54,807 bases of DNA, from positions 1 through 54,807 of the forward strand of contig JAFRLZ010000030.1 in the NCBI GenBank assembly GCA_017430985.1, given 5' to 3'. Below are positions 1 through 7,586 of this stretch, piece by piece. The DNA comes from Oscillospiraceae bacterium (GTDB taxonomy: Bacteria > Bacillota > Clostridia > Oscillospirales > Oscillospiraceae). Position 1 is the stretch's first letter. Every line of letters begins with the position of its first letter. The notes beneath the pieces were generated by a model, which was not told the origin of the DNA, ran no database searches, and worked only from the letters and a program-made list of their open reading frames with translations. The position numbers and the translations under genes were made by a program.

Positions 1-381
1 GCGGGCGATATCGACGCGATCAGCTTCTCGCTGTATGCCGACTCTGAAACGAGGGTGTACCTGTACCTGAACATGAAGGAAGGGTACGCGGGAACGCCGA
101 CGGCGACGCTGGGCGGCGAGAGCCTGACGGTGAGCCCGACGGGCGTGACGGGCGAATACAGGATCATCCTGCCGGCGTTGAAGGCGAACGGACTTGGGAA
201 TATGCTGACGGTCACGGTGAGCGACGGAACGGCAAGCACGACGGTCAAAGTATCTGCGCTGTCGTATGTGAGAAGCGTTCTGGATCCGGGCAAGACGAAG
301 ACGGAGGCCGTTAAGAACTTTGCTTCCGCGCTGTATCAGTACAACCGTGAAGCGGTGGCCATCAGCGGCCAGGGACAGTAA
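1..381 (+). CDS. C-terminal end of a secreted or surface repeat protein (5' end outside window)
   Basis: The reading frame is open from the first base (frame 1) to a TAA at 379-381, so this is the last 126 residues of a longer protein. The segment is rich in Thr, Val, Gly and Ser with alternating beta-type patterns, as in bacterial Ig-like or adhesin modules, and ends with a short helical region (KNFASALYQYNREAV) and no membrane anchor or sorting signal. I do not recognise the family. The stop is only 14 bases before the start of the small peptide gene at 396, so both are probably on one mRNA. That makes this protein a possible partner of the peptide cassette, but this is inference. Confidence 0.6.
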   Translation, partial: AGDIDAISFSLYADSETRVYLYLNMKEGYAGTPTATLGGESLTVSPTGVTGEYRIILPALKANGLGNMLTVTVSDGTASTTVKVSALSYVRSVLDPGKTKTEAVKNFASALYQYNREAVAISGQGQ

Positions 382-395
382 AGGAGGAGAGCAGA

Positions 396-491
396 ATGGA
401 AGCATATGAAGTGATGAAGCTTGAGATCGTGCGTTTCGAGACGGTGGACGTGATCACGGATTCGGATCCGCTCGAGTCGGAAAGAGAATAA
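396..491 (+). CDS. 31-residue acidic peptide, candidate RiPP precursor
   Basis: An ATG at 396 with an ideal Shine-Dalgarno (AGGAGG, 382-387) opens a 31-residue frame ending in TAA at 489-491. The peptide starts MEAYEVMKLEIVRFETVDVI and ends in an acidic tail with Ser23, Pro25 and Ser28; it has no Cys. Short Clostridial peptides with the pattern xxEIVxFExxDVIT are familiar to me as unannotated small ORFs, but I cannot search for them here. It sits directly before an HPr-kinase-like protein, a PqqD-like leader-binding protein, an S26 peptidase and an ABC exporter, the usual order of a RiPP operon. I therefore infer that residues 1-21 form a leader and the tail is the core. The modification and product are unknown. 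Confidence 0.62.
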   Translation: MEAYEVMKLEIVRFETVDVITDSDPLESERE

Positions 492-503
492 AGAAAACGG
501 GAA

Positions 504-534
504 ACACGGGGCGGAGCAAACGTCCGCCCCGTGT
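504..534 (+). promoter_or_regulatory. Strong hairpin between peptide gene and downstream enzyme genes
   Basis: A perfect 12-bp stem (504-515 with 523-534, ACACGGGGCGGA and its complement) and a 7-base loop lies 13 bases after the peptide stop. No T-run follows, so it is not a plain terminator. Hairpins at this point in RiPP operons commonly protect the precursor mRNA or reduce transcription into the enzyme genes, so that peptide exceeds enzyme. That role is inferred. Confidence 0.6.
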
Positions 535-574
535 ATCAGGTAAGCAGATTTCAAAGGAAAGACGGAATAACGAT

Positions 575-1276
575 ATGAAAGGGTTATACCGCCTTGCGGA
601 ACTGAATATCGAGATCGACAGCCTCTGCCCGGACGTCCATAACCTGTGCGCGGACTACCGGGCAGAGGGCTTTGCGGACTTTTCCGTTCAGACCACCGGG
701 GCGGATATCGCCTTCGAGCGCGAAAGAGGCTCCGGGCTGTCGGTTTCCGACGGGTACCTGGAGACCCTGGCGGTGTACCGCAAGATCGCCGAAATGCTGC
801 CGTATCACGACGCGGTGCTGATCCACGGCTCCTGTGTGGCCGTCGACGGCGCGGCCTATCTCTTCACAGCCAAAAGCGGCACGGGGAAGAGCACGCACAC
901 GCGCCTGTGGCGCGAGCTGCTGGGGGAGCGCGCCGTCATGGTCAACGACGACAAGCCACTGCTGCGCATCACGGAGAGCGGCGTGACCGTCTACGGTACG
1001 CCGTGGAACGGAAAGCACCGGCTGGGCGCGAATATCGCCGCGCCGCTGAAGGCGCTGTGCCTGCTGGAGCGCGCTGCGGAGAACAGCATCGTGCCGGTCA
1101 CGGTCCCGGAGGCCTATCCCATGCTGCTGCAGCAGGTATATCGCCCCGCAGACCCCGCGGCGCTGGAGAAGACGCTGCATCTGATCGACCGCCTGGCGGC
1201 GTCCGTGAAGCTGTACCGCCTCGGCTGCAACATGGAACCGGAGGCGGCGGAAGTTGCCTATGCGGGCATGAAATAA
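575..1276 (+). CDS. HPr-kinase-like P-loop protein of a peptide-modification cassette
   Basis: This 233-residue protein has a P-loop AKSGTGKST at residues 99-107 preceded by the strand VLIHGSCVAVDGAAYLF, then VNDDKPLL (123-130) and YGTPWNGKHRLG (140-151). This is the pattern of HPr kinase-related proteins that accompany PqqD-like proteins and peptide exporters, not of the two-domain hexameric HprK/P that regulates sugar uptake. In lasso peptide clusters such kinases phosphorylate a Ser on the precursor (known for paeninodin-type clusters). By analogy the substrate here could be Ser23 or Ser28 of the peptide encoded at 396. The gene starts at ATG 575 with a weak AAAGGA far upstream, and is followed after 30 bases by the PqqD-like gene. 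Family assignment is firm; substrate is inference. Confidence 0.78.
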   Translation: MKGLYRLAELNIEIDSLCPDVHNLCADYRAEGFADFSVQTTGADIAFERERGSGLSVSDGYLETLAVYRKIAEMLPYHDAVLIHGSCVAVDGAAYLFTAKSGTGKSTHTRLWRELLGERAVMVNDDKPLLRITESGVTVYGTPWNGKHRLGANIAAPLKALCLLERAAENSIVPVTVPEAYPMLLQQVYRPADPAALEKTLHLIDRLAASVKLYRLGCNMEPEAAEVAYAGMK

Positions 1277-1306
1277 GGATCGCGGAAGGCGCGGAAAGGG
1301 AACAGA

Positions 1307-1567
1307 ATGAAGCTGAACAAGCATTTTATCGTCCATGAGATCGGCGGAGAGAGCCTCCTTGTCCCGGTCGGCGGCGCCGAGTTTTCCGGCATCGTCCGCG
1401 GCAACAAGACGCTCGGCGCGCTGCTGGAACTGCTGAAGACGGAGACCAGCGAGGCTGAGCTCGTCGCGGCGCTCTGCGCTCGCTTCGACGCCCCGGAGGA
1501 GCAGATCGCCTCCGACGTGGCGAAGGCGCTCGAGAGCCTGCGCGGCATCGGTGCCATCGATGGGTAA
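1307..1567 (+). CDS. PqqD-like RiPP recognition element protein
   Basis: This 86-residue protein has the PqqD pattern: an N-terminal beta hairpin (FIVHEIGGESLLVPVGG), then a winged-helix-like helical half (NKTLGALLELLKTETSEAELVAAL, FDAPEEQIASDVAKALESLRGIGAI). PqqD-type domains bind the leader of ribosomally made peptides and present it to modifying enzymes. ATG 1307 has GGAAAGGGAACAG upstream. It lies between the kinase-like gene and the peptidase gene and overlaps the latter by 8 bases, so the two are probably translationally coupled. It stands alone and is not fused to an enzyme, as with the B1 proteins of lasso clusters. Its ligand is most simply the peptide at 396. Confidence 0.82.
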   Translation: MKLNKHFIVHEIGGESLLVPVGGAEFSGIVRGNKTLGALLELLKTETSEAELVAALCARFDAPEEQIASDVAKALESLRGIGAIDG

Positions 1568-2003
1568 GGCGCAGCTGGAGGAACTGAATAAACACGGCCG
1601 CTATCTGAGCGTCCCGCATGGCGTCAGCATGTGGCCCATGATCCTCAACAAAGAGGGGATCGTGGAGATCGAAAAGCTGGAACGTCCGGCCAGACGCTAC
1701 GATCTCGTCCTGTATATCCGCGGGGAGGAGCAGGGCGTGATCCACCGCGTCCTGCGCGTGCGGGAAAAGGACTATATCATCGCCGGGGACAACTGCTGGC
1801 GGCGGGAATATATCCCGAAGGATCGCGTCGTGGGGATCGCCGTGCGCTTTTACCGCAAGGGGAAATGGTACGAGGTCACGGACTGGCGCTACCGGATCTA
1901 CGTCCACCTGTGGACGGATCTTTTTTTCATCCGTATGCCGCTGCTGTTCCTGCGTGACAAGACGAAGGCTGTTTTGAGGAAGATCGCCCATGCAAAAACA
2001 TGA
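1560..2003 (+). CDS. S26B (SipW-like) peptidase, candidate leader peptidase
   Basis: The 147-residue product has the signal-peptidase nucleophile box HGVSMWPMI near residues 20-28, a VIHRVLRV box that carries the His used as base in the S26B (SipW/ER-type) Ser-His dyad, and the AGDN box. The usual N-terminal membrane anchor is missing; instead a hydrophobic amphipathic segment near the C terminus (LWTDLFFIRMPLLFL) may bind the membrane. I start it at ATG 1560, inside the end of the PqqD-like gene, rather than at GTG 1551; neither has a clear ribosome site, which fits coupled translation. The ABC gene starts 14 bases before its stop. In this context it is the best candidate to remove the peptide leader, in place of the transglutaminase-like protease of lasso clusters. 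That role is inference. Confidence 0.75.
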   Translation: MGKAQLEELNKHGRYLSVPHGVSMWPMILNKEGIVEIEKLERPARRYDLVLYIRGEEQGVIHRVLRVREKDYIIAGDNCWRREYIPKDRVVGIAVRFYRKGKWYEVTDWRYRIYVHLWTDLFFIRMPLLFLRDKTKAVLRKIAHAKT

Positions 2004-3720
2004 CAACACGGCGCTGACATGGTTGTGGCGGGTCTCGGGCAGGCAGAAGGGGAGCATCCTGGCGCTGACAGTGGTGCAGGCCCTGCACGGGGCCTCCGGC
2101 GTGGTCTACGCGCTGCTGCTGCGCGGGATCGTCGACTCCGCCGCCGGGCACGACGGCGCGTCCTTCTGGCGCTATGCGCTGCTCACGGGTCTGCTGGTGC
2201 TCGCGCAGCTTGCGCTGCGCTATGCGATCCGCTTTCTGAGCGAGCTCGGGAGATCCGGCCTGGAAAACGCCTTCAAGCAGCGCCTGCTGCACGCGCTGCT
2301 GCGCAAGGATTATAACGCGGTCAGCGCTCTCCATTCCGCCGAATGGCTCAACCGGCTGACCAACGACGCCGTCGTCGTGGCCAACAGCATGGTGGAGATC
2401 CTCCCGAATCTCGCCGGGATGTGCGTCAAGCTCGTCTGCGCGCTCGTGATGCTCACGGTGCTGGATCGGCGCTTTGCCGTCATCCTGCTGCCGCTCGGCG
2501 CGGCGCTGCTCCTGCTCACCTGGCTGTTCCGGAAGGTCCTCAAGCGCATGCACAAGACCGTGCAGGAGCAGGACGGTAAGCTCCGCGTCTTCTTGCAGGA
2601 GCGCATCGGTGCCATGCCGATCCTCCGCTCCTACGCGGCCGAGGAGCAGACCGAGCGGGAGGCTTCGGACAAGATGAAGGCGCACCGGGCCGCCCGGATG
2701 CGCAAAAACCGTTTCTCGAATATCTGCAATTTCGGCTTCGGTGCGGCGATGAGCGGGATGTACCTCTTCGGCGTTCTCTGGTGCGGCTACGGGATCCTGC
2801 AGGGAACGATCAGCTTCGGTACGCTGACCGCCGTTACCCAGCTGATCTCGCAGATCCAGTCGCCCTTTGCCAGCATCACCGGCTACCTGCCCCGCTTCTA
2901 CGCCATGCTCGCCAGTGCCGAGCGCCTGATGGAGATCGAGGCCTTCCCCGACGAGTGCGGCGGCGAGGCGCATTCGCCCGACGAGATCCGGGACTATTAC
3001 GGCGAGCGCTTCTACGCCGTGGAGCTGCGCGACGCGGCCTTCACCTACTACCCGGCCGCGGAGAGCCTGGAGGAGCTGAACAAGGACGATCAGCCCGTCG
3101 TGCTCGACGGCCTGAGCCTTACGATCCGCCGCGGAGAGGCGCTGGCCTTTACCGGCCCGAGCGGCTGCGGCAAGTCCACGGTGCTGAAGCTGCTGATGTG
3201 CCTGTATCCGATGGACGGCGGCGAGCGTCTGCTGCGCAGCCGCGACGGGAGCGCGGAGCCGCTCTCGCCCGCCTGGCACCGGCTGTTCGCCTATGTCCCG
3301 CAGGGGAACCAGCTCCTGAACGGCACGATCCGCGAGATCGTCAGCTTCGCCGATCCCACGGCGGCGCAGGACGAGGAACGCCTTCGCCGCGCGCTGGCCG
3401 TGGCCTGCGCGGACGGCTTCGTGTCGGAGCTGGAGCGCGGCGCAGACACGCAGCTGGGCGAGCGCGGCGCCGGCCTGTCAGAAGGACAGATGCAGCGCCT
3501 GGCGATCGCAAGAGCCATTTTCTCCGGCAGCCCGATCCTCCTGCTCGACGAGGCGACGGCCTCGCTCGACGCGGAGACGGAGGAGCGCCTGCTGCACAAT
3601 CTGCGCGAGATGACGGACATGACCGTCGTGATCGTGACCCACCGTCCGGCGGCGCTCACGATCTGCGACAGGGTCCTGCAGTTCACGGAAAACGGCGTGG
3701 TCGAACAGAAAAAGGAATAA
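1990..3720 (+). CDS. ABC exporter (fused membrane and ATPase domains), likely peptide exporter
   Basis: A 576-residue half-transporter of type IV exporter fold: membrane domain in residues 1-310 with several hydrophobic helices, then an ATPase domain with Walker A GPSGCGKST (about 388-396), signature LSEGQMQRLAIARA (about 495), Walker B ILLLDEATAS (about 515) and H-loop THRP. No C39 peptidase domain precedes the membrane domain, so leader cleavage must be done by another protein, consistent with the S26-type peptidase just upstream. It would act as a homodimer. ATG 1990 overlaps the peptidase gene by 14 bases. The linker before Walker A contains a short acidic insert (EELNKDDQ). A hairpin terminator follows. 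Confidence 0.88.
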   Translation: MQKHDNTALTWLWRVSGRQKGSILALTVVQALHGASGVVYALLLRGIVDSAAGHDGASFWRYALLTGLLVLAQLALRYAIRFLSELGRSGLENAFKQRLLHALLRKDYNAVSALHSAEWLNRLTNDAVVVANSMVEILPNLAGMCVKLVCALVMLTVLDRRFAVILLPLGAALLLLTWLFRKVLKRMHKTVQEQDGKLRVFLQERIGAMPILRSYAAEEQTEREASDKMKAHRAARMRKNRFSNICNFGFGAAMSGMYLFGVLWCGYGILQGTISFGTLTAVTQLISQIQSPFASITGYLPRFYAMLASAERLMEIEAFPDECGGEAHSPDEIRDYYGERFYAVELRDAAFTYYPAAESLEELNKDDQPVVLDGLSLTIRRGEALAFTGPSGCGKSTVLKLLMCLYPMDGGERLLRSRDGSAEPLSPAWHRLFAYVPQGNQLLNGTIREIVSFADPTAAQDEERLRRALAVACADGFVSELERGADTQLGERGAGLSEGQMQRLAIARAIFSGSPILLLDEATASLDAETEERLLHNLREMTDMTVVIVTHRPAALTICDRVLQFTENGVVEQKKE

Positions 3721-3726
3721 AACAGG

Positions 3727-3760
3727 AAACGGAGCTGTGCAAACATGCACAGCTCCGTTT
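3727..3760 (+). terminator. Hairpin terminator of the peptide cassette
   Basis: A perfect 14-bp inverted repeat (3727-3740 with 3747-3760) with a 6-base loop begins 6 bases after the ABC stop codon. The stem has flanking A and T runs (AAAC and GTTT), so it can work on this strand. It marks the end of the cassette. Confidence 0.7.
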
Positions 3761-3780
3761 CCGTTCACAAGGACATATCC

Positions 3781-3826: not shown

Positions 3827-6217
3827 TTATTCGGGAGCGCCGGAGGAGGGTGCTTTGTCGCCCTTCCTGCCCTTGCGCGTCACGACGAGGAGAACGACCA
3901 CGATCACAACAGCCGCGGCCATCAGGCCGACCCAGATCCAGATGTTGTTCGCGTCGCCGGTGACGGGCGTCGTGCCGGCGGGGATCTTGCCGCTGGAGTC
4001 GGTGATCTTGATCTTGCCGAACTTGTAGGTGATCTCGTAGTTGCTCGTCACATCGACGCCGGTGCCGCTGGAGCCCTTGACTTTCTCGCGGATGATCAGC
4101 TCGGCGGAGTTTTCATAGGTGCCCATGTTCTTGGGGGCCGCCGTGTACTTGATGCTGATCGTCTGCACAAAGGTGTTGCCGCTGTGGATGTATTCGCCGA
4201 GCTTCGGATCGGTGTAGGTCATGATCGGCTGCGGGTTCTTCATGTGGGTGTAGGACCAGGATTTGCCGTCGTAGACCTTGCTGTCGTCGCGGGTCTCCAC
4301 GGTGATCTTGCGCTTGGTGATCGTTACCACGGCGTTCGCGTCCGCACAGGTGAAGCTGGAGGTGACGTCGGTATCGGAGGCGTCCTTGACGCTCTTGAGG
4401 TGCAGCTTGACAACGGCGGTGCCGACGTTGTACAGCTCGGTGACGCCGCCCTCGTAGGTAATCTCCACGTCGGCCTTGTGGCCGGCGGGCAGGCTCGTCA
4501 GGGAGATGTAGTTCTTGAGCGAATTCAGATCGAAGGCGTTGCCGTCGTAGACCTTGGTGAAGCCGGTCACGTCGAAGGCGAAGGCCAGAGCGGTGGTGCC
4601 GGGAGCCGGGGTGGGCACGGTGACCTCTACGGTGACGTCATGGCCGCTGGGGAAGTGGACGACGATCGTATGGGTGCCGGGCGTCAGCGTAGCCATGTAG
4701 GACGGCTCGATGAGGACGATGACGGAGCCCTCGCGGACGCTGAAGGCCGTGATGGCCGTGCCGTCGACGTCGACGGCGATGCCCGCGGAGTTGGTGGCAA
4801 AGTCGGCGTCAAAGTGGAGGGACAGACCATCCTGGTCGTCGGCCTTCCACTCCGTCTCGGTGTCAGAGAGGATGGCGGGCGTGCCGGCCTTGTCGATCTT
4901 CACCGCTTCAAGCGTAGTGGGCTGCTGGCCCTCGGCGTCCAAGAAGATGTCGGTGCAGCCGGAGCATGTGTAGTAGGCCCTGTTGCCGTCCGCCGTGGCG
5001 GTGGCGTTCTTGGCCGGGACGAGCGTCAGGCTGTGGGTGTGGGCGGGCGCGGCAGCGTCTTTCCAGATGGCCACGAGCGTGTTGTCGCCGCTGATCGTGT
5101 CCGGATCATCGGGGTGAAGGACCTCGTCGCCGCGGAGCCAGTGGGAGAACTCCTTGTTTTCAGGCGCGGTGAAGCCGCAGGCGGGGACAGTGTACGCCTC
5201 GCCGACAGTTACGTCCATGGGATCCATGTTCCCCGTGCCGCCGTTGGCGTCGAAGCTCAGCCGACAGGTGGTGGCGGCGGGAGCCTGGTAGTGCGTGACG
5301 ACGCTGGTCTTGTCGGTGATCTCATTCTCACCGTTGGCGTCGCTGAAGAACTTGTCACAGTCGGGATCGGTGCACTTCCAGTACTGGATGTTGCCGTCGG
5401 CCGTGGCGGTAGCCTCGACGGCCGGGACCTCCTGCAGGGTGTGCTCGTGGGCCGTGTTGCGGTCAGCGGGGGCCTCGTAGTGCGTGACGACGCTGGTCTT
5501 GTCGGTGATCTCATTCTCGCCGTTGGCGTCGCTGAAGTACTTGCCGCAGACGGAGCATTCCCAATACTCGATGTTGCCGTCGGCCTCGGCGGTGGCCGCG
5601 ACCGCCTCATGATGGGTCAGAGGATCGCTGTGCGTGCCGGGAGCGGCGATCACGGGGATCTCGTCGAGCAGATAGAGCTCGCCGGCGATCGTGTAGTAGG
5701 CGTCGTTGCCGGCTTCAGTGCAGGTCGCAGCCTTTGCTTCGACAGCGGTCACTCTGGCAAGAACCAGGCCGAGCGTATACGCGGTGGACGTAGCATTGAA
5801 CTTGCCGGCGGAGAAGAAATCGGGGTCGATTTCGATCTCGGCGCCGTTCCCCGTTAAGGAAGCAAAGTCCTCGCTGACCGCTTCGAGAAGATCGTCATTG
5901 ACAGCGGCTGCGATATACAGGGAAGCCACAGCGTAGCCTTCCGGAGGCGTGAGCACGAGGCCGTTGGCCTGCAGAGCGGCAACGTCGGAAAGCGTCGCAA
6001 GAGAAGAAAGGATGCTGCTGTCTTTCAACTGTCCGTTCGTCTGGGCGGAGCTGGAAAGATTGCCGTCTTCGTCGACCGGAGCCAGAACATACAGGCTGAC
6101 GGCCGCGCTGCCGGGCAGTTCGCCCTCAGCGCGCGCGGCGGGAGCCACAGCGCCGAACTGGAGCGCCATGACCAGCACCAGCAGGAGGCTGAGCAGAGTC
6201 TTCGTAGTCTTTTTCAT
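3827..6217 (-). CDS. Sortase-anchored surface protein with repeats and a TPVTG signal
   Basis: The 796-residue product has a classic signal peptide (MKKTTKTLLSLLLVLVMAL, cleavage near ARAEG). Cys-containing modules of the type YWECSVCGKYFSDANGE recur near residues 220 and 277, with a weaker third near 410. An InlB-type repeat (FDANGGTGNMD, about 320-390) and two KVYDG modules (about 555 and 640) follow. It ends with TPVTGD at about 748, a hydrophobic helix, and RKGRKGD, the layout of a sortase signal with Pro and Thr-Gly in the right places. I start at ATG 6217 because GAGGTG lies 8 bases upstream; a GTG three codons earlier would sit inside the ribosome site. The sortase gene upstream on the same strand is the likely anchoring enzyme. 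Confidence 0.85.
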   Translation of the reverse strand: MKKTTKTLLSLLLVLVMALQFGAVAPAARAEGELPGSAAVSLYVLAPVDEDGNLSSSAQTNGQLKDSSILSSLATLSDVAALQANGLVLTPPEGYAVASLYIAAAVNDDLLEAVSEDFASLTGNGAEIEIDPDFFSAGKFNATSTAYTLGLVLARVTAVEAKAATCTEAGNDAYYTIAGELYLLDEIPVIAAPGTHSDPLTHHEAVAATAEADGNIEYWECSVCGKYFSDANGENEITDKTSVVTHYEAPADRNTAHEHTLQEVPAVEATATADGNIQYWKCTDPDCDKFFSDANGENEITDKTSVVTHYQAPAATTCRLSFDANGGTGNMDPMDVTVGEAYTVPACGFTAPENKEFSHWLRGDEVLHPDDPDTISGDNTLVAIWKDAAAPAHTHSLTLVPAKNATATADGNRAYYTCSGCTDIFLDAEGQQPTTLEAVKIDKAGTPAILSDTETEWKADDQDGLSLHFDADFATNSAGIAVDVDGTAITAFSVREGSVIVLIEPSYMATLTPGTHTIVVHFPSGHDVTVEVTVPTPAPGTTALAFAFDVTGFTKVYDGNAFDLNSLKNYISLTSLPAGHKADVEITYEGGVTELYNVGTAVVKLHLKSVKDASDTDVTSSFTCADANAVVTITKRKITVETRDDSKVYDGKSWSYTHMKNPQPIMTYTDPKLGEYIHSGNTFVQTISIKYTAAPKNMGTYENSAELIIREKVKGSSGTGVDVTSNYEITYKFGKIKITDSSGKIPAGTTPVTGDANNIWIWVGLMAAAVVIVVVLLVVTRKGRKGDKAPSSGAPE

Positions 6218-6300
6218 TTCATTCACCTCGAAAGATAGTTGCGGAACGCAGACGGTAAATCGTCATTTTTCTTTACCGGTCTGCAATTTCTTACACGGTC

Positions 6301-6329
6301 ATTATACCGTTGCACGGCGGGGAAAGCAA
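6301..6329 (-). promoter_or_regulatory. Promoter of the surface protein gene
   Basis: On the minus strand TTGCTT (6324-6329) and a perfect TATAAT (6301-6306) are separated by 17 bases. The leader would be about 75 bases. The rest of the 6218-6533 gap is AT-rich and holds no gene I can support. Confidence 0.7.
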
Positions 6330-6487
6330 GGGAGGCAAACCTAAAGCTTTCTTAAGATTGCAATTAAGAAACCAGCAAGTTGCAAAATGGAAACAACAAA
6401 CAGGCGAAAGCCCTCCCGCTTTTCCTATCTAAACTATACTCTTTTCCGCGTCCCCTGTCACCTTAAGCATTCTTAAATCGTACAAGA

Positions 6488-6513
6488 AAAGAGAGGAGCC
6501 GAAGCTCCTCTCT
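6488..6513 (-). terminator. Intrinsic terminator after the sortase gene
   Basis: On the minus strand the stem AGAGAGGAGC, a TTCG tetraloop and GCTCCTCTCT are followed by TTTCTTG. It lies about 20 bases after the sortase stop and separates it from the surface protein promoter, so the two genes are separate units. Confidence 0.85.
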
Positions 6514-6533
6514 GAACCATTGTGCGTTTGTTT

Positions 6534-7352
6534 TTAACGGGTCGGGACCAGCTTGCCGAAGACGACGTAGCGCGCCTGGTTGTATTCATAGGTGCAGGTG
6601 GACAGCACCACGATGCGGTCGTCCACGGTCGGCGTGACGTCGCAGTCAAACTCGGAAAAGGCCTTCATTTTCAGCAGATAGGCCTGATATTCCTCGTCGG
6701 TCGCGAAGCCCGTCACATAGACGGCGGAATCCGCCGCCGTGATAAAGGCGGAGAACAGATCCACGCGGTAATTGCCCTCCGGCGTGTTGAGATACATGCA
6801 GGGGTGCGCGTCGTAGTATTCCTGCTTGCGGTAGTTGACGAGCGAGGCGAACATGGAGCCGTCGTTCATGTGGTGGCCGTAGATGAGGTTGATGCGGCTG
6901 GCGAAGCTGCCGGTGCAGCGGAAGTCGATGAACAGAGAGCCGCTGCCGTTGTAGCTGCGGTCGTACAGGCGGTGCAGATAAAAGTCGTTGTCGGCGGCCT
7001 GCATGACGGGGTAGTTGATCACGGTGTCCGCACAGTAGAGCCAGCCGCGCACGTCCGGGTTCTGCGCCAGCAGCGCGTCGAAGTCTACCGTGATGGGGGA
7101 CGGATCGGCCAGCGAGGCGTCGGCCGGGGTCTGCGCCTGCCCGGGAAGCGAGGGAAGCGAGGCAGGATCGGCGTTGCTGACGTAATCGCCGCTCAGCTTG
7201 TTGTAAGAGCGCTGCGCGACGCGGTACTCGTGCGCGATCGTGTAGAGCTTATAGCCGGCAAACAGGAAGACGGCGAGCAGCAGACCGATCGAAACGCTGA
7301 TCAGGATGCGCTTGGTCTTTCGGCTCAGTTTGATCTTTTTTTTCTGTTCCAT
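6534..7352 (-). CDS. srtB: Class B sortase
   Basis: A 272-residue transpeptidase with a cytoplasmic basic start (MEQKKKIKLSRKTKR), one membrane helix (about 19-38) and an extracellular catalytic domain. The catalytic His is in IYGHHMNDG (about 157), the Cys in VVLSTCTYEY (about 251) and the Arg in NQARYVVFG (about 259). The spacing and the GHHMNDGSMF box are those of class B. The start is ATG 7352, which has GGAGGG 8 bases upstream; a longer in-frame extension would read back into a palindromic repeat and is rejected. Clostridial class B enzymes such as that of C. difficile recognise (S/N)PXTG-like signals, which fits the TPVTG protein encoded next to it. Confidence 0.9.
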   Translation of the reverse strand: MEQKKKIKLSRKTKRILISVSIGLLLAVFLFAGYKLYTIAHEYRVAQRSYNKLSGDYVSNADPASLPSLPGQAQTPADASLADPSPITVDFDALLAQNPDVRGWLYCADTVINYPVMQAADNDFYLHRLYDRSYNGSGSLFIDFRCTGSFASRINLIYGHHMNDGSMFASLVNYRKQEYYDAHPCMYLNTPEGNYRVDLFSAFITAADSAVYVTGFATDEEYQAYLLKMKAFSEFDCDVTPTVDDRIVVLSTCTYEYNQARYVVFGKLVPTR

Positions 7353-7377
7353 AGAGTTGCCCTCCGTAGTTGGGGGC

Positions 7378-7406
7378 ATTATAACGCATGAAAATGAAAA
7401 AGAAAA
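7378..7406 (-). promoter_or_regulatory. Probable promoter of the sortase gene
   Basis: A perfect TATAAT on the minus strand (7378-7383) lies 26 bases before the sortase start. The -35 region is T-rich without a good TTGACA match, so only the -10 is well supported. Confidence 0.45.
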
Positions 7407-7436
7407 GACTTCCGGCAAAAAGCTTAAGGAAAATTC

Positions 7437-7586
7437 ACAAACTGGGATTTGGCGAGGTGTTGGTATTTGACCGTAGGGGCCGATGCCCTCATCGGCCCGC
7501 GGAAAAAAATACCTGTTCATGCGGGGCGATGAAGGCATCGCCCCCTACATCATCCAATTTAAACGCCTCGATAAACTCCCGTTTGT
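7437..7586. repeat. 150-bp palindromic intergenic repeat, copy 1
   Basis: The ends form a long imperfect inverted repeat (ACAAACTGGGATTTGGCGAG against the complement of CTCGATAAACTCCCGTTTGT). Inside, two arms of about 28 bases (GTAGGGGCCGATGCCCTCAT and GAAGGCATCGCCCCCTAC regions) also pair. A second copy of nearly the same sequence and length lies at 23305-23453. The element ends directly at the TAG of the ABC ATPase gene. It codes for nothing; the open frames seen across it on both strands are by-products of the palindrome. The structure suggests a MITE- or REP-like element moved in trans. Confidence 0.85.

Follow-up and report, generated by a model that had tools for sequence, protein, structure and literature searches.

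The closest described systems to the locus reported here are the gene clusters for phosphorylated lasso peptides, namely the Bsf cluster of Bradymonas and those for paeninodin and pseudomycoidin. According to PMC10368454, the Bradymonas lasso kinase BsfK phosphorylates Ser3, which lies 19 residues after Tyr(-17), and the recognition element (RRE) for the ribosomally synthesized and post-translationally modified peptide (RiPP) raises the yield. Lasso clusters of rumen bacteria and of anaerobes are described as containing kinases and nucleotidyltransferases (PMC13289728, PMC10368454 and related lasso papers), and the rumen lasso clusters include peptidase-domain proteins, according to a figure legend in PMC13289728. 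The present analysis concerns a cassette at one end of contig JAFRLZ010000030.1 (Oscillospiraceae bacterium, GCA_017430985.1), the whole 54,807-nt stretch of which is termed the window, where a gene for a 31-residue peptide is followed by genes for an HprK/PEPCK-like kinase, a PqqD-like RRE, an S26B-type peptidase and an ATP-binding cassette (ABC) exporter. This is probably a RiPP-like system without the lasso enzymes, in which one machine would act on several micropeptides, often encoded in trans, to make surface ligands. Its sequence-level support is the conservation of the peptide, its co-occurrence with the kinase, the conserved catalytic residues, the frequent coupling to genes for large, secreted-looking proteins and, in relatives, the resemblance of peptide tails to the ends of anchored stalk proteins.

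The features of the cassette, all on the + strand except where indicated, are as follows.

1..381, +, 3' end of a cut protein gene (126-aa C-terminal part); the open reading frame (ORF) runs off the contig edge
124-378, +, C-terminal domain (CTD) of about 85 aa, defined by alignment and often found just 5' of the peptide in relatives
381..388, +, ribosome-binding site for the peptide gene, in contact with the upstream ORF's stop codon (379-381); stop-to-start gap 14 nt
396..491, +, putative 31-aa precursor peptide; leader MEAYEVMKLEIVRFETVDVITDS, tail DPLESERE, with a proposed leader/tail boundary
453..464, +, I-T-D-S codons; the Ser encoded at 462-464 (Tyr4+19) is proposed to accept the phosphate, by comparison with BsfA in PMC10368454
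504..534, +, 12-bp hairpin between the peptide and kinase genes; z of the stretch -5.8, with 0 of 200 shuffles equally stable
575..1276, +, HprK/PEPCK-like small kinase, 233 aa; P-loop AxSGTGKST (99-107), His84 and Asp125-Asp126 conserved
1307..1567, +, PqqD-like RRE, 86 aa (PF05402, 2.3e-11)
ATG 1560 (GTG 1551 possible) to 2003, +, S26B-type peptidase, about 147 aa; Ser23, His62 and Asp77 conserved
1990..3720, +, ABC exporter, 576 aa, membrane and ATPase domains (Pfam domains over the cut-offs)
3725..3762, no strand assigned, strong hairpin 3' of the ABC gene; T-run on the - strand side only

The enzymes of the cassette carry the residues expected of their families. For the kinase, His84, the P-loop AxSGTGKST and Asp125-Asp126, which correspond to residues with roles in the HprK/PEPCK fold, are conserved among 81 sequences, and Thr103 is present in 96% of them; matches of the kinase profile to the Protein Data Bank (PDB) were weak (PEPCK, E 0.084; HprK, E 0.84). 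For the RRE, the best PDB matches of the profile were the lasso RREs TbiB1 (E 0.0015) and TfuB1 (E 0.0035). For the peptidase, Ser23, His62 and Asp77 are present in 55 of 55 sequences, five of which were recruited by a Ser-containing pattern (G.SM.P), and the profile matched type I signal peptidases and SEC11 at E 0.006-0.036 (SEC11 at E 0.009-0.036). The first-pass annotation had assigned all of these proteins from the DNA sequence. Its PqqD-like and ABC assignments stand, with domains over the cut-offs; its HPr-kinase-like and S26 assignments agree with the conserved catalytic residues, while the family models HPr_kinase_C (E 0.011) and sigpep_I_arch (E 0.006) stay below their cut-offs and the S26-like protein has no Pfam match over the cut-off. 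Both the S26 and the kinase gene are single-copy in the window's own genome, which is 81% complete.

Compared with the phosphorylated lasso clusters, the window has in common the HprK-like kinase, the discrete PqqD-like RRE, the ABC exporter and a leader motif resembling Y..P.L. Relatives often include NTP_transf_5, as the Bsf cluster does, and a Ser stands at Tyr+19 as in BsfA. The cassette could therefore be read as a lasso-type or bacteriocin-type pathway that has a protease and a cyclase encoded elsewhere and makes a diffusible antimicrobial: the kinase, discrete RRE, NTP_transf_5 (24 of 106 neighbouring ORFs of relatives) and exporter amount to the K, B1, N and D set of the Bsf cluster. 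We consider this very unlikely. The window has an S26B peptidase instead of the transglutaminase-like B2, and no match to the lasso B2 protease family Transglut_core3 (PF13471) was found in its own genome; only 2 of 22 kinase-bearing genomes have one over the cut-off, on contigs other than that of the kinase (a 755-aa and a 181-aa ORF). Asn_synthase (PF00733) is neither among the five genes nor among the 25 of 91 families listed for the 106 neighbouring ORFs, no genome-wide search having been made. A lasso core would have Gly or another small residue at position 1 and Asp or Glu at positions 7-9, and how well the tails fit this depends on the cleavage position: 12 of 46 tails start with Gly, 14 of 46 have fewer than 9 aa, and the first residue of the window's product would be Asp or Thr. 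These loci further differ from Bsf in their short tails, in having precursors that are often in trans and in their ties to secreted and stalk proteins. On the absence of PF13471, membership of the window in the lasso class was rejected, so that the earlier proposal of a system distinct from lasso peptides apparently holds.

Other families resemble parts of the machine. HPr-rel-A (TIGR04352/TIGR04353) likewise combines an HprK-related kinase with a PqqD-family protein, but the window's kinase scores 16.2 bits against a cut-off of 200 for TIGR04352 and its PqqD-like protein 22 against 35, so that neither reaches its cut-off. The SynChlorMet cassette also contains an HprK-like kinase within a peptide cassette; against ScmC (TIGR04249) the window's kinase reaches 19.8 bits, the cut-off being 125. 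The peptidase has Ser, His and Asp where an S26B type I signal peptidase (SEC11) would have them, and SEC11A/C are among its best PDB profile matches, but it is only about 147 aa long, is encoded with an RRE and has no apparent N-terminal membrane helix or anchor. The peptidase-domain proteins of PMC13289728 may overlap parts of this machine. The comparison also drew on PMC7533575, PMC12710340, PMC7470986 and PMC4289311; among the matches listed by literature searches, which did not cover subscription papers and preprints, no paper describing the system was found.

The peptide belongs to a family with a conserved leader and a variable tail, as the first-pass annotation had anticipated. Of 399 stretches encoding a relative of the kinase, the best 80 were kept as loci; they carry names of Clostridia and related groups, many from rumen or gut. 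The peptide set comprises 46 distinct sequences, 23 from these 80 loci and 23 from the family sample of genomes, which includes the window's; one of them (L115), truncated at the end of its contig, closely resembles L105 and L111. The peptide alignment used 22 of 24 peptide ORFs, leaving out the near-identical L019 and a fused copy in L030. The 46 do not include three more peptides, one of L149 and two of L157, nor a further 30 from a class sample. The leader consensus is roughly Y..[PL].[MIL]E[IV][IV].F..EDVIT.S, followed by a short, variable, acidic tail of 5-24 aa (the shortest is truncated where its contig ends) in which Asp, Glu, Gly and Pro are frequent. The leader codons are under purifying selection, with a median dN/dS of 0.30 and dN<dS in 96% of the 308 unsaturated pairs among 1035. 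A tail motif, [IV]x[LMVI]P, devised after inspection, is enriched (13 of 76 tails; shuffle mean 1.8) and is missing from most tails, including that of the window. Two features by which RiPPs are generally recognized are both present, namely a short precursor whose tail varies behind a conserved leader, and a co-encoded recognition element.

The conserved segment is closed by Ser in 46 of 46 peptides (codons AGY in 39 and TCN in 7); the end-of-leader pattern itself requires Ser, yet all 46 peptides passed. The residue 19 positions before this Ser, taken as the nearest Tyr, Phe, His or Cys to that spacing, is Tyr in 38 of 46 peptides, Phe in five and Cys in one, with two exceptions. The peptide of L165, in the class sample, carries one extra residue ahead of the Ser. 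In L167, L169, L170, L175 and others of that sample, the leader is shared, the tails are longer and the upstream proteins are of other types.

The peptides also co-occur with the kinase across genomes, as judged by P values that, here and for the pairings below, take no account of genome relatedness. In the family sample (150 genomes), the peptide was found in 13, the kinase in 22 and both in 11 (P = 3e-9), the two peptide-only genomes being 59% and 67% complete. In the class sample (391 genomes, including the window's own and at least two others from the family), the corresponding numbers were 36, 103 and 35 (P = 1e-21); with the kinase restricted to matches beginning no later than profile position 21, they were 59 for the kinase and 32 for both (P = 2e-26). 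In the window's own genome, six peptide genes are spread over five contigs, versus one kinase and one S26 gene. These distributions suggest that the precursors are scattered and often encoded in trans to one machine that would serve several micropeptides. Genome G364 has 14 peptide matches and G166 has 11. On contig C61 of the window's genome, a PqqD-like stretch of 31 aa with 55% identity (L093:835-927) lies directly 3' of two tandem peptide genes and is apparently the remnant of a second cassette.

The residues of the tail follow the enzymes encoded beside them. Among the 80 loci, only L021 and L058 have Cys-containing tails, and both have a radical-SAM gene of one type between the peptide and the kinase. 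In the family sample, a homologue of this radical-SAM protein (E below 1e-40) is present in 3 of 3 genomes with Cys tails versus 0 of 10 other peptide-bearing genomes (P = 0.0035), and L161 of the class sample, a Cys-tail locus tested afterwards, has it directly downstream. This tracking of tail Cys with radical SAM is the behavior that the core of a precursor should exhibit. Weaker radical-SAM matches were found in three family genomes without a detected peptide (G092, G143 and G145; E 6e-22 to 4e-12); L030 has a weak match about 3 kb away on the other strand, and L023 has a radical-SAM ORF of another type among the 106 neighbouring ORFs, with no recognized peptide nearby. Such pairing of radical-SAM genes with Cys-tail peptides recalls the sactipeptides and ranthipeptides, although the homologue was not found in the window's genome.

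In addition, the peptide genes are coupled to genes for large, secreted-looking proteins. An ORF of at least 300 aa ends between -75 and +40 nt from the peptide start for 30 of 46 peptides, versus 159 of 5000 random positions, and a signal-peptide-like start is seen in 13 of 14 complete upstream large ORFs versus 97 of 182 other large ORFs. Of three upstream proteins scanned, that of contig C44 in the window's genome has BspA-type leucine-rich and beta-helix repeats, and the other two gave no match over the cut-off. Many upstream proteins, including the partial ORF of the window, share the CTD. In the window's own genome the CTD matches only the window and C44, and a peptide follows in both. 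Fourteen genomes of the family sample have the CTD, and 11 of these have the kinase (P = 1.4e-8). The first-pass annotation had the peptide leading the cassette behind an ideal ribosome site. The site is indeed strong, but the peptide is not the first gene: upstream of it lies an ORF that continues past the contig edge, a cut protein gene which that annotation had not reported, and the stop codon of this ORF is in contact with the ribosome site. This contact suggests translational coupling of the peptide to the cut gene.

Downstream of the peptide, an ORF with a signal- or membrane-like segment was found in 16 of 46 cases, with six more in the class sample. Several of these ORFs encode stalks, built of an anchor (lipoprotein, transmembrane or SLH), a middle part of low complexity and a free end, and the free ends resemble the tail of the neighbouring peptide, as in the following pairs. 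At L079 (Ruminococcus flavefaciens ND2009), a single locus contains peptide, stalk and cassette.

L106, EENMTDKG and PDNMTEKG
L051, PPEGEEVEI and PPEGEEIDPFQ
L011, GDIELPEQP and GDILLPEVP
L095 (own genome), NEGEPIDI and DEGEIIEL

For the statistical comparison, the rows were chosen without regard to the tail, on the basis of a hydrophobic segment and a ribosome site; 19 of 22 were kept, three downstream ORFs cut by the locus end being left out. None of 20,000 re-pairings of the 19 uncut pairs scored as high as the true pairing, and the own partner was within the top 3 for 12 of the 19; for L012 and L042, a region near the mature N-terminus was used after inspection, which favours the result. 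The outcome was the same after removal of near-duplicates and of the fused case, L030:4098-4613, in which the C-terminus of a stalk lipoprotein is the whole leader-plus-tail peptide fused in frame. Furthermore, tail distance correlates with CTD distance, partial on kinase distance (r = 0.42; 2/5000; 16 loci), after L019 (with a spurious upstream ORF) and L030 and then near-duplicates were dropped. Since it best accounts for the tail-stalk resemblance, a ligand role is the one we assign to the tail, which most likely acts extracellularly as a ligand that is also displayed on the anchored stalks.

The resemblance also bears on two other explanations. The tail could be a linear peptide pheromone, with the pairing to surface-protein genes merely coupling expression; short, variable, acidic tails behind a conserved leader and several peptides per genome (up to the 14 matches of G364) would suit such a signal. 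This is unlikely, as the tail-stalk resemblance would be left unexplained and neither a receptor nor a regulator is conspicuous beside the cassette (two response regulators among the 106 ORFs, in the absence of a systematic search). Alternatively, one extracellular enzyme, such as a transpeptidase, could join both the tail and the stalk end to the large protein, the kinase and RRE modifying the free version. The tail-like motif at the free C-terminal end of differently anchored stalks (lipoprotein, transmembrane and SLH) is in line with this idea, whereas the families listed for neighbouring ORFs (25 of 91) include no such enzyme, and the motif near the mature N-terminus in L012 and L042 is a misfit for a single end-joining chemistry; we therefore give it little credence.

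In the RiPP-like system that we favor, the PqqD-like protein would bind the leader through Y..[PL].[MIL] and present the peptide to the HprK-like kinase, which would phosphorylate the invariant Ser 19 residues past the Tyr. The S26B-type Ser-His peptidase would cut inside the D-V-I-T-x-S segment or directly behind it, and export of the product would fall to the ABC protein, which has no peptidase domain among its Pfam matches. Phosphorylation guided by the RRE, cleavage by the S26B peptidase and export by the ABC protein are each a likely inference. The phosphorylated, leader-cleaved peptide envisaged by the first-pass annotation is thus plausible, given the conserved catalytic residues and the invariant Ser at Tyr+19. 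With regard to the cleavage position, the signal peptidase -3/-1 rule calls for small residues. The T-x-S sequence also fits this rule, so that a cut before Thr and a cut after Ser are both possible; cleavage before Thr, with the Ser kept in the product, is given a slight preference, and cleavage after Ser would be nearly an even prospect. The partner of the tail may be the CTD of the co-encoded large protein, in which case the role of the free peptide would be to cap that protein, to chaperone it or to release it. A fuller scheme of surface assembly, put forward tentatively, would have the secreted protein carry a docking domain and the stalk tip carry a tag, with the machine making free phosphorylated copies of the tag as capping or release ligands, one machine per cell thereby serving several tag-protein pairs.

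Several observations weigh against this interpretation. First, of the 38 four-gene loci only 12, and of the 80 kinase loci only 21, show a recognizable peptide in the fetched stretch, many of the stretches being short contigs. The idea that the peptides always adjoin the cassette was rejected on this ground, and the expectation of the first-pass annotation that most four-gene clusters would contain the small ORF fails. The precursor role nevertheless survives the failed adjacency test, because the precursors are often in trans, as in the window's own genome, and co-occur with the kinase genome-wide. Second, no peptide was detected at the threshold used in 68 of the 103 kinase-bearing genomes of the class sample, and G408, which is 97% complete, has four peptide matches and no kinase match. 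The former count would also suit machinery with an unrelated job, for example phosphorylation of a surface polymer, the peptides being merely co-inherited; this is extremely unlikely, as the kinase is present in 35 of 36 peptide genomes, radical SAM follows the tail Cys and the leader has an RRE-type motif. Third, only 22 of 46 peptides have the leader Pro, the window having Met there, and the Tyr, Pro and Leu of BsfA are replaceable without loss of phosphorylation according to PMC10368454. Fourth, 18 of 46 tails have no Ser, Thr or Tyr, so that, if the cut is after the Ser, those products keep nothing phosphorylatable; a phosphoacceptor in the tail was accordingly rejected as a general rule.

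The evidence on the partners has similar weak points. Among 29 distinct CTD proteins with fetched loci (of 50 matches), a peptide is directly downstream in 13 and not in the other 16, and G084 and G101 have the CTD without kinase or peptide. Exclusivity of the CTD to peptide loci, which is true in the window's own genome, is therefore rejected for the family sample. In the tail-stalk comparison, the own partner ranks 19th of 19 for L021, 18th for L092, 14th for L189 and 11th for L079. The tail-CTD correlation falls to a partial r of 0.32 (168/5000) with CTD-type upstream proteins only (12 loci) and to 0.20 (72/5000) in 29 loci with leader distance as the covariate. Finally, there is no stalk beside the window's own peptide, and among the six peptides of its genome only that on C44 has a clear one.

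The peptides are carried by 36 of the 391 genomes of the Clostridia sample, two of them with more than 10 matches, yet the peptide of the window is matched by no Pfam or NCBIfam model. If the favored interpretation is true, they would represent a RiPP-like class that is tied to the cell's own surface, not to killing, and that uses lasso-type tailoring enzymes without the lasso protease. The combination of a kinase, an invariant Ser and an S26B peptidase makes the system open to simple co-expression tests, and the tails are ready ligands for finding partners.

With respect to the arrangement of the cassette, the five same-strand, closely spaced genes of the first-pass annotation were all found as ORFs on the + strand, separated by a peptide-kinase gap of 83 nt, a 30-nt gap, an 8- or 17-nt overlap and a 14-nt overlap. 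The 12-bp hairpin in the peptide-kinase gap may allow more peptide than enzyme to be made. The terminator proposed to close the cassette corresponds to a real hairpin (3725-3762), which scored as terminator-like only on the - strand; the terminator scan of the window gave 5 sites versus 2.6 +/- 1.9 expected. At L012, a serine recombinase gene (5726-7231, Pfam) lies directly 3' of the PqqD-like gene, hinting at mobility or insertion. Beyond the cassette, on the opposite strand, the window contains a long ORF (3827-6226, -) that has a membrane segment at its C-terminal end and, resembling a sorting motif, a PVTGD-type sequence, with no LPXTG model over the cut-off, and beside it a sortase gene (6534-7538, -; Pfam 9e-8).

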